DNA of 42,537 bases, taken from assembly GCA_020057185.1 (NCBI GenBank), contig JAGVGK010000031.1:1-42537 (forward strand), read 5' to 3'. The translations under genes and the position numbers were made by a program. Within the stretch, counting starts at the first letter, position 1; each line of letters opens with the position of its first letter. This document shows, piece by piece, positions 18,625 to 27,531 of the stretch. This DNA comes from Minisyncoccota bacterium. Its GTDB lineage: Bacteria; Patescibacteriota; Minisyncoccia; Phycocordibacterales; JACOZG01. The notes under the pieces were generated by a model. That model had not been told where the DNA came from and did not search any database. It saw only the letters and a program-made list of their open reading frames with translations.

Positions 18625-19026
18625 TTACTTTAAGTTCTCCTTCACATCCAGCGACCAGGCGAGATCGTGCAGTTTGCTCGGGGAAAGTTTGGGAATCTCC
18701 ACGGCTCGTTCGGTCCCCAGAATGATCGGGGTGGCGGTGGCCGTCGAGTCTTGCCGTTTCCAGAGATAGAGTTTGGCGCTCAAGAGATAGCGGAAGCTCG
18801 CTTCGAGGACGAAAATGAACGAACGATTGTTAACTTTGTAAAAAGCAAGGGCCAGCGCCAATAAAGCGACGGGAATCATTAGCCACATTCCTAACCAGAA
18901 GGGCAAGAGAGTGTAGATGATGAAGACGGCCCCCGCCCCGCCCGCCAAGTAGATGAACTGTTTGAAGGTCAGCGGTCCGAAAATCTTGTCTTCGACTTCG
19001 ATAAATTGTGGCACCTGGAAATTCAT
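18625..19026 (-). CDS. PrgI family protein
   Basis: MNFQVPQFIEVEDKIFGPLTFKQFIYLAGGAG, typical PrgI N-terminus. Confidence 0.88.
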   Translation of the reverse strand: MNFQVPQFIEVEDKIFGPLTFKQFIYLAGGAGAVFIIYTLLPFWLGMWLMIPVALLALALAFYKVNNRSFIFVLEASFRYLLSAKLYLWKRQDSTATATPIILGTERAVEIPKLSPSKLHDLAWSLDVKENLK

Positions 19027-19454
19027 AAAATAGCTTGCTGATTAGCTTGTAGCTTGTAGCTGATTAGCTTTTTAGCTTTAGAATCAGGAAGAGGAAGTAA
19101 TTGTAATTTACCGACCATAACATTTAGCATCCTCATAATCTCATCCAACAACCTCTCCGTATTAGTATAATCGGTTTTCTCTCCAAAGGATAATTTTCCC
19201 GCTATTAATAATTGTGTTTCCAATTCGGATCCCGAGCCGTAAGCAATTCTAAGAAATTGTAAATAATCTTTTCGGGTGCCTCGTCGTCGGCCTTCAGCAA
19301 TGTTCGATGGAATGGAAACAGCCGATCGCCGCATTTGAGAAGTAAGGCCGTAAGTTTCCGATGAGGGGAATTTTTTAGTCAGTCCATAAACACTCATAAC
19401 TAATTCGATAGATTTTTTCCAAACCGTCAGATCTTTGTATGAATGTATTTCCAT
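19023..19454 (-). CDS. Four-helix bundle protein (S23 / 23S rRNA intervening-sequence protein family)
   Basis: SYKDLTVWKKSIELVMSVYGLTKKFPSSETYGLTSQMRRSAVSIPSNIAEGRRRGTRKDYLQFLRIAYGSGSELETQL. Confidence 0.93.
   Translation of the reverse strand: MEIHSYKDLTVWKKSIELVMSVYGLTKKFPSSETYGLTSQMRRSAVSIPSNIAEGRRRGTRKDYLQFLRIAYGSGSELETQLLIAGKLSFGEKTDYTNTERLLDEIMRMLNVMVGKLQLLPLPDSKAKKLISYKLQANQQAIL
19027..19080. repeat. AGCT-rich repeat at the 3' end of the IVP gene
   Basis: aaatagcttgctgattagcttgtagcttgtagctgattagctttttagcttta; encodes the IVP C-terminus. Confidence 0.8.
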
Positions 19455-19466
19455 TTTCCTAATTTC

Positions 19467-19503
19467 CTAAAAAGCTACAAGCTAATAAGCTAACCAGCTA
19501 TTT
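19467..19503. repeat. AGCT-rich repeat upstream of the IVP gene, inverted relative to 19027-19080
   Basis: ctaaaaagctacaagctaataagctaaccagctattt. Confidence 0.8.
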
Positions 19504-20094
19504 CCCCGGTTTTTCCAAATACGGATCCAAATCCACCTCCTCTCTCGGTATCCGAAACAGTTTCCCCATCTTCTGCTCGAAGACGCTCTCTTCCGGCGTC
19601 TTGGCTGGATTCTCGATCCCGTCAATCACTTCCTCACGGTTGGGCAGATTCACTGTCGCCGGTTGATCGGCCATCGCTGGTCTTGGGTCAGGAATCGTCT
19701 CCACCCCGTTAGAGACAGAGGGTCGCTGCGAGCCCTCGCGGTCTCTAACGGGGTCCACGCCGTAATTATCTGGTCCATCTTGATGCAACTCCTGCAACGA
19801 CTCGCGAATCTTGAGAAAAATTTGTTCGTTCACCTCGCGCGCTATCCCCTCCGCCACTGCCCGATCAAGACCAATCCGCGCGATGATATTAGTCACAAAA
19901 TTTTCCGGTCGCGAAAAACCAATGATAACCATGGCCACTTGGTCAGCCAGTATCCCGATTTGGTCAATATGCAAGACATATTTTTGACCGATTTGACCGA
20001 TTGCCCCGGCTGGGTCTAATAAATCAACTGCCTCCTTAATGTCTTGAGGTAATCGTTTGTATTGCTCAACTATTTGTTCGTAAGTGTAAGTCAT
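19498..20094 (-). CDS. Hypothetical protein in T4SS cluster (198 aa)
   Basis: ORF in operon context; contains palindrome-encoded peptide DPVRDREGSQRPSVSNGVE. Confidence 0.75.
   Translation of the reverse strand: MTYTYEQIVEQYKRLPQDIKEAVDLLDPAGAIGQIGQKYVLHIDQIGILADQVAMVIIGFSRPENFVTNIIARIGLDRAVAEGIAREVNEQIFLKIRESLQELHQDGPDNYGVDPVRDREGSQRPSVSNGVETIPDPRPAMADQPATVNLPNREEVIDGIENPAKTPEESVFEQKMGKLFRIPREEVDLDPYLEKPGK
19704..19753. repeat. In-frame 50-bp palindromic insert
   Basis: ccccgttagagac...gtctctaacgggg, 13-bp perfect arms, inner gaggg...ccctc stem. Confidence 0.85.
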
Positions 20095-26795: not shown

Positions 26796-26820
26796 ACAAA
26801 TTTTCCAAAACCTAAAAAAC

Positions 26821-26839
26821 TGGGAGGAATTTCCTCCCA
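26821..26839. repeat. Palindrome tgggaggaatttcctccca, copy 1 (downstream of RAYT)
   Basis: Identical to 27558-27576; also sits in a larger aaaaaactgggagga...tcctcccagtttttt inverted repeat (26814-26855). Confidence 0.85.
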
Positions 26840-26853
26840 GTCCTCCCAGTTTT

Positions 26854-27531
26854 TTACTCAGAATTAGGTGATTGGCTATATTCCATCCAATCATCTAAAA
26901 AATTTTTAAAATTAATCTCGCTATTGAAATAATCGGGGAAGGCGTCAGGATTTAGAATAACTTTTTCTTGGCGTTCGCGGCCAAGATAATCTTGATAACT
27001 GGAGTAGGGGTAATTGTTCAGAAAAGATTTGGCTTTCTCGATATTTTTTATTATTTTGGTTGGCCAACCATCGGGGTTAGAAATCTTGACGGGGTTGAGA
27101 TGAACATAGGAGTAGAGATAATTTAAATAAGGGTCATTGTCCACTTGGGTTGCTTTAAATGGGCCTTCAAATAACTTACCGCTCCGTCCGTGTTTTAAAT
27201 TAAAATAAGAAGAATAACTAGTTAAAAACTTTCGCGTAAAAGTGGTAATGCCACCCTCTCGTTTCTCTCTGATTAATAAATGGAAATGATTAGGCATCAA
27301 ACAGTAGGCTCCAATATCAACCAAGGTTTTTCCCCGATCTTGTTCCCAAACTTGCTTAGACCATCGGGGAAAATCACTTAAATGGATTGACTTGGAACCG
27401 TTGGCGGCGTAAAGCGAGCAAATGAATCTCTGATAATCATTATTGGTCAAGAAAATTTTACGCTTGTCATTTCCTCGATTGTATAAGTGGTAAAACTCCC
27501 CCACACTAAAAACTACTTTTCTTTCTGACAT
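26854..27531 (-). CDS. REP-associated tyrosine transposase (RAYT, Y1_Tnp/IS200-like)
   Basis: FYHLYNRGNDKRKIFLTNNDYQRF, GAYCLMPNHFHLLI (HUH), YLYSYVHLNPVK, YPYSSYQDYLG. Confidence 0.93.
   Translation of the reverse strand: MSERKVVFSVGEFYHLYNRGNDKRKIFLTNNDYQRFICSLYAANGSKSIHLSDFPRWSKQVWEQDRGKTLVDIGAYCLMPNHFHLLIREKREGGITTFTRKFLTSYSSYFNLKHGRSGKLFEGPFKATQVDNDPYLNYLYSYVHLNPVKISNPDGWPTKIIKNIEKAKSFLNNYPYSSYQDYLGRERQEKVILNPDAFPDYFNSEINFKNFLDDWMEYSQSPNSE

Follow-up and report, generated by a model that had tools for sequence, protein, structure and literature searches.

A palindrome that is translated in frame inside a gene of a type IV secretion (T4SS) cluster raises the question of whether the repeat belongs to the gene or has entered it and, in the latter case, what kind of element it is and which enzyme moved it. 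The palindrome lies in the window, i.e., the whole 42,537-nt stretch of DNA that was analyzed, and its 50 bp were found where the initial annotation had placed them (Table 1). Perfect 13-bp arms and an inner stem had been described as well; the arms are in fact 14 bp long (19703-19716 and 19741-19754), and the inner stem, a second and imperfect one, does lie within the 24 nt that separate them. Folded as single-stranded DNA, the palindrome reaches -19.9 kcal/mol vs. a mean of -8.9 for shuffled sequences (z -5.3). The peptide that had been read from it, DPVRDREGSQRPSVSNGV, was obtained again from the minus-strand host ORF. The palindrome also has a TCCA direct repeat on either side, which is absent from the initial annotation, and the 50 bp plus one such 4-nt duplication make 54 nt, or 18 in-frame codons.

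Table 1. Coordinates of the palindrome, its parts and its host gene in the window, and of other copies in the same genome (contig:position).
Feature	Location	Strand	Remarks
Host gene, 198-aa protein of type IV secretion cluster	19498..20094	-	No Pfam family; insert at residues ~113-130
Mobile palindromic element	19704..19753	.	50 bp; 11 further 50-bp copies with 38-50/50 identities, each at another genomic place
Target-site duplication copy 1, TCCA (coding strand TGGA)	19700..19703	.	Single-copy target GTGGA kept in G001 orthologue
Terminal inverted repeat 1, CCCCGTTAGAGAC	19704..19716	+	
Inner imperfect stem-loop	19719..19736	.	Based on fold
Terminal inverted repeat 2, CCCCGTTAGAGAC on - strand	19741..19753	-	
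Target-site duplication copy 2, TCCA	19754..19757	.	
Intact copy	C6:8432		End of methionine aminopeptidase-like ORF (gene name read from sequence)
Intact copy	C7:10299		Inside TsaD
Intact copy	C16:16815		End of tRNA-guanine transglycosylase-like ORF (gene name read from sequence)
Intact copy, 68 bp	C21:18097		Inside pilin leader
Intact copy	C27:11658		Flanks TCAA/TTAA
Intact copy	C46:511		
Broken half copy	C40:2641		

The neighbors of the host gene match the TraG/VirB4-like, PrgI and, weakly, TrbL families, and its assignment to a type IV secretion cluster therefore stands. A homologue of the host protein is present in 210 of the 297 genomes of the order that were searched, the nearest orthologue being that of a genome from the same family as the window genome (G001). 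The initial annotation had looked to homologues lacking the segment for proof of an insertion, and in the alignment the G001 orthologue lacks exactly 18 residues at the insert position, while its DNA holds one copy only of the target (TGGA/TCCA) in the same codons (GTG-GA). The palindrome is thus a genuine insertion. Among 19 host-protein loci that were read, the CCCCGTTA or TAACGGGG string was found in one only, and paired strings in none. A reading in which the segment is instead conserved in the T4SS gene, as a feature of its protein or RNA, would fit the segment's being translated and open, but it can be given almost no credence, as host orthologues lack the segment (the exact 18-residue gap in G001 already refutes it), copies occur in unrelated genes and between genes, and a search of the window against Rfam matched no family. 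Neither conservation of the segment without the palindrome nor a lack of further copies, the two outcomes named beforehand as contrary to an insertion, was encountered. Directly adjoining the palindrome-bearing gene is a gene for a 23S rRNA-intervening-sequence/bAvd-like four-helix protein (19023-19454).

A search of the window genome (G000) for end pairs, as suggested in the initial annotation, revealed six other intact copies (Table 1) plus variants. The 4-nt flanks match in all of the intact copies except that on contig C27, and a variant on C3, 48 bp in length and starting with TCCC, has the flanks TTCA/TTCA and lies ~70 bp downstream of a GIY-YIG gene. Twelve copies carry the 50-bp interior of the window palindrome at 38-50 of the 50 positions, nine of them with exact, mostly differing duplications, and an identical 50-mer is present at another site in G001 with the duplication TCAA. 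Because the duplications differ by place among copies with a shared interior, the 50-mer itself is the moving unit. The palindrome is short and gene-less, has terminal inverted repeats and a target duplication, occurs as dispersed copies and is matched by an empty site in a relative; it is, with confidence approaching certainty, a MITE-like miniature mobile element. Mobility was read here from the comparison of sequences, and no movement event was observed.

The element belongs to a cross-phylum family, defined by the ends YCCCGTTARA and a 4-nt YNNR duplication. Within the order, 31 of 397 genomes contain the end pair CCCCGTTARA...TYTAACGGGG, and a reversed control pattern had no match in those of its genomes that were listed. 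Among GTDB genomes at large, at least 119 stretches carry the same ends; the matches listed come from many phyla, including Patescibacteria, Omnitrophota, Nitrospirota, Elusimicrobia, Deltaproteobacteria, Planctomycetes and others. The 4-nt flanks match exactly in 60 of 129 copies (mean 8 and maximum 17 in 2000 trials with shuffled right flanks), and an exact duplication is missing in the other 69, in a set that includes short matches in isolates (Planomicrobium, Pseudomonas, cyanobacteria) without direct flank repeats, which may be terminators or chance matches. In a non-redundant set of 140 exact duplications, from which these isolate matches are excluded, YNNR fits 139, and 128 are T..A or C..G. 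Bases 11-13 of the ends differ among copies yet agree between the two arms in 107 of the 140 (shuffled mean 10, maximum 18). Copy lengths are mostly 28-50 bp, and some copies of 98-142 bp combine the same ends and duplication with largely unrelated interiors. Viral contigs (181 loci for TTTA/TAAA plus CCCCGTTAGA) contained few copies only and no autonomous form, and unpaired ends in the closed Velamenicoccus genome led to no transposase. No mention of TCTAACGGGG as a bacterial repeat was found in titles, abstracts and passages of the literature outside subscription journals. A CCCCGTTAGAGAT end pair in the genome G140 (C60:13895-14000, or L228:2896-3001), 106 bp apart and with differing flanks, encloses an apparently whole tRNA gene.

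Insertion into protein genes was assessed with empty sites that were reconstructed by a script joining the flanks, copies being counted if the ORF was 150 codons or longer and extended for 25 codons or more on each side. Counted by ORF and frame, as the initial annotation had envisaged, 26 copies were located in such ORFs and 20 of them had a length divisible by three, compared with 48 of 85 copies outside such ORFs, a bias that alone is modest evidence because the commonest sizes, 29 and 50 bp, already yield multiples of three. Nineteen of these 20 copies are open, and every open host copy occupies one of two TAG-free repeat frames, which read PVR...SNGV or TPLE...LTG, the third frame containing TAG. 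Hosts confirmed by family search or by solved chains include TsaD, IleRS (in G001), IF-2, PolA, a ClpB-like ATPase, a pyridine nucleotide-disulphide oxidoreductase and a GspH-type pilin. The prepilin site GFT/L was struck three times in different genomes (G000 C21, L032:18097; L304:3913; L247:1019); TTTA within the F-T codons is a favored target and its duplication restores the motif, and the L247 copy has a stop. Peptide inserts from one mobile family in essential proteins (TsaD, IleRS, IF-2, PolA) of Patescibacteria and other uncultured phyla affect annotation and structure work on these organisms, whatever enzyme moves the family. Two of these hosts display additional features. The TsaD ORF of the window genome (L009:629-1945, contig C7) contains, also in frame, several more palindromes that belong to other families (AAGGCAACGCCTT and AAGGACNGTCCTT types); these inserts lie in regions missing from solved TsaD chains, and no clear target duplication was seen for them. 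In the IleRS of G001 (C39, L045), a histidine-phosphatase/phosphoglycerate-mutase-like domain is situated at residues ~124-322, between the two matching stretches of the protein.

The insertion of palindromes in coding frame had brought Rickettsia palindromic elements (RPEs) to mind in the initial annotation. This likeness is borne out insofar as the present element is a mobile, in-frame coding palindrome with many copies and with orthologues that lack it; RPEs, too, are palindromic repeats that lie in frame in unrelated protein genes, add a peptide to the product and use more than one coding frame. It does not extend to family membership, which is highly improbable. The CCCCGTTARA core is constant and copies are mostly 28-50 bp, vs. 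~150 bp for RPEs (PMC10969869), and the tag CGTC in which the R. conorii RPEs end (PMC3733652) is absent, the 50 bp of the window palindrome having CCCC...GGGG as outer bases. A clear 4-nt target duplication is present, and the hosts are Patescibacteria, Omnitrophota, Nitrospirota and others. These ends, the spread over many phyla and the gene-bearing GIY-YIG relatives, which the initial annotation had not envisaged, set the family apart from RPEs as published.

REP-type palindromes moved by RAYT/IS200-like HUH transposases were considered first because the window genome contains eight Y1_Tnp genes, one of which lies in the window at 26854-27531. By its known mechanism, transposition of the HUH type does not duplicate the target, whereas a duplication is evident here, and the CCCGTTA pair was found at none of the eight Y1_Tnp loci; a RAYT/REP origin was rejected on these two grounds. 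REP/RAYT systems (REPtrons, TIRtrons) do resemble the present family in their short palindromes of many copies, some of them intragenic (PMC3733652), and in the small nuclease gene that is flanked by repeats in related elements. Unlike the present family, they comprise HUH tyrosine enzymes and GTAG-tagged REPs and produce no target duplication; the ends described here carry neither a GTAG nor a CGTC tag and are flanked by variable YNNR sequences. This origin is very unlikely, as the duplication largely refutes it. A 16-bp perfect inverted repeat at 26813-26856 of the window overlaps the end of the Y1_Tnp (IS200/RAYT-like) gene and is possibly that gene's own repeat. Contig C41 of the window genome, which also has a Y1_Tnp gene, contains repeats of the sequence TGTTGAACACCGAGTGTTCAACA (L041:1111-1156 and 1890-1912), and related palindromes are present elsewhere in the genome (L028, L031, L040); they represent a possible REP family of the C41 RAYT.

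A candidate for the mobilizing enzyme came from elements that have both the same ends and a gene. Among all elements listed with these ends and an exact duplication, two contain an ORF (275 and 277 bp), and both encode a GIY-YIG protein, in a scan that was not aimed at that gene. All elements with these ends in which an ORF was found measure 274-289 bp and encode an 86-aa GIY-YIG nuclease, the one protein scanned matching PF01541 (E 2.3e-16). Its nearest solved relatives are UPF0213 proteins (1ZG2, 1YWL) and SLX1, and its invariant residues include Y3, Y5, Y16, G18, R26 and E62. UPF0213/Slx1-like standalone nuclease genes, unlike the genes of these elements, are host genes and are not known to be bounded by repeats. 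In the 275- and 277-bp elements the protein ends in SLTG, four residues that result from translation of the inverted repeat.

Of the 397 genomes of the order, 315 have a GIY-YIG homologue. At the best 30 loci, the ORF ends have inverted repeats scoring at least 13 in 26 cases (0 of 1,241 controls reached 12), and the flanks are unrelated with the exception of one pair. The usual end of the GIY-YIG elements is TCCCGTTAGAGAY, and the 27 listed, with one locus entered twice, include 16 with exact 4-nt and three with 5-nt duplications, mostly TGAA and also TGAG and CAGA; the TGAA flank also supplies the stop codon, so that duplication and target preference are partly confounded in these elements. 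One element lies between genes resembling pheS and pheT. In the genome G398, a GIY-YIG copy and numerous small copies have the same unequal ends (GATGA/GATAG) and the same outer TAAGGTTTT flank, and at locus L168 a GIY-YIG gene of the same family is interrupted by a small copy with the flanks TGGG/TGGG. The GIY-YIG genes of Velamenicoccus and of other phyla are bounded by the same ends or by related, different ones, and the existence of GIY-YIG clades with other ends (CCCCGTTCCAAAT, CCCCGCCCTTCCT, CCCCGTTAAGTAA) suggests a joint variation of ends and nuclease. Co-occurrence of nuclease and small copies is imperfect, because the copy-rich genome G140 (about 25 pairs, largely in a common longer CTCG/CGAG context and not all independent events) has no GIY-YIG match, and G400, G403 and G406 have distant matches only, without these ends. 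In the window genome, repeats of this type do not directly bound the close GIY-YIG homologue (contig C3, 65% identity), though the 48-bp variant with the flanks TTCA/TTCA follows it after ~70 bp.

These observations bear on the parentage of the small copies. Prokaryotic MITEs such as Correia, ERIC, RUP and the Coxiella QMITE1 are likewise short and gene-less, with terminal inverted repeats, a target duplication and, at times, a location in ORFs. The present copies differ from them in being near-perfect palindromes as short as ~28 bp, in having ends common to GIY-YIG elements and one core over many phyla, and in that no DDE parent was found in the loci fetched. They could nonetheless be MITEs of an ordinary DDE-type insertion sequence that is missing from these assemblies, with the GIY-YIG elements as passengers borrowing its ends; inverted ends with a short target duplication of fixed length are the usual mark of DDE transposition, and some copy-rich genomes have no cognate GIY-YIG element. 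Yet the fetched loci, from genomes that are fragmented, contained, among pairs spanning up to 6 kb, no transposase-sized one with a duplication; of the only two longer pairs, one measures 391 bp and the other joins two small copies that are separate. The exclusive recovery of GIY-YIG genes in the unbiased scan and the apparent covariation of ends and nuclease also speak against a DDE parent, which is considered rather unlikely.

The preferred reading, that of a MITE-like insertion together with mobilization in trans by GIY-YIG elements, is regarded as probable with moderate confidence; taken by itself, the inferred mobilizing role of the GIY-YIG protein is given an even chance. The 50-bp unit entered the T4SS gene at a TCCA target, which a 4-nt staggered cut duplicated, and the insertion added 18 codons in frame. 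A small Slx1/UPF0213-type GIY-YIG nuclease, encoded by ~280-bp elements with the same ends, would mobilize the family in trans by recognizing the repeats, possibly as extruded hairpins, and making the staggered cut in the target. Hairpin recognition is proposed in view of the SLX1 relatives, nucleases that are structure-specific. GIY-YIG enzymes act as hydrolytic nucleases and are not known to be strand-transferases; a repair step is therefore needed, in which host enzymes would seal the joints. Selection would then retain, in coding sequence, only insertions that are divisible by three in total length and lie in one of the two open frames.

The gene-bearing elements may accordingly be described, in a proposal that is evenly poised, as a new minimal autonomous class: ~280 bp consisting of two ~14-bp inverted repeats and an 86-codon GIY-YIG gene that ends in repeat codons. 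Members of this class would move with a YNNR duplication of 4 nt and give rise to the ~28-50-bp palindromic derivatives in essential proteins across many uncultured phyla. Novelty as a category would follow only if GIY-YIG-driven transposition were proven; otherwise, the family is a MITE-like one whose candidate parent is unusual. If the role of the nuclease is true, the gene-bearing elements would rank with the smallest DNA elements that move by themselves, a nuclease class would be added to the known ways of DNA transposition, and protein-coding palindromes of this kind would have a testable origin.

No description of GIY-YIG elements with these ends was found in titles, abstracts and passages of the literature outside subscription journals. 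According to passages of one paper, CPR rRNA genes contain non-intron insertions with GIY-YIG proteins at varied, poorly conserved sites outside the homing pattern, beside many short ORF-less insertions (PMC11270868). GIY-YIG proteins and short ORF-less insertions at varied sites are thus common to both cases; unlike the present family, no inverted repeats or target duplication were found for the rRNA insertions in passages of that paper, and the two appear compatible by description only. Other GIY-YIG genes of the window genome (L522 and L521, on contigs C40 and C16) adjoin palindromic repeats of other sequence (CCCGATTTCGTAAACGAAATCGGG; CCCCGACTTCG type), and these may constitute additional families of this kind.
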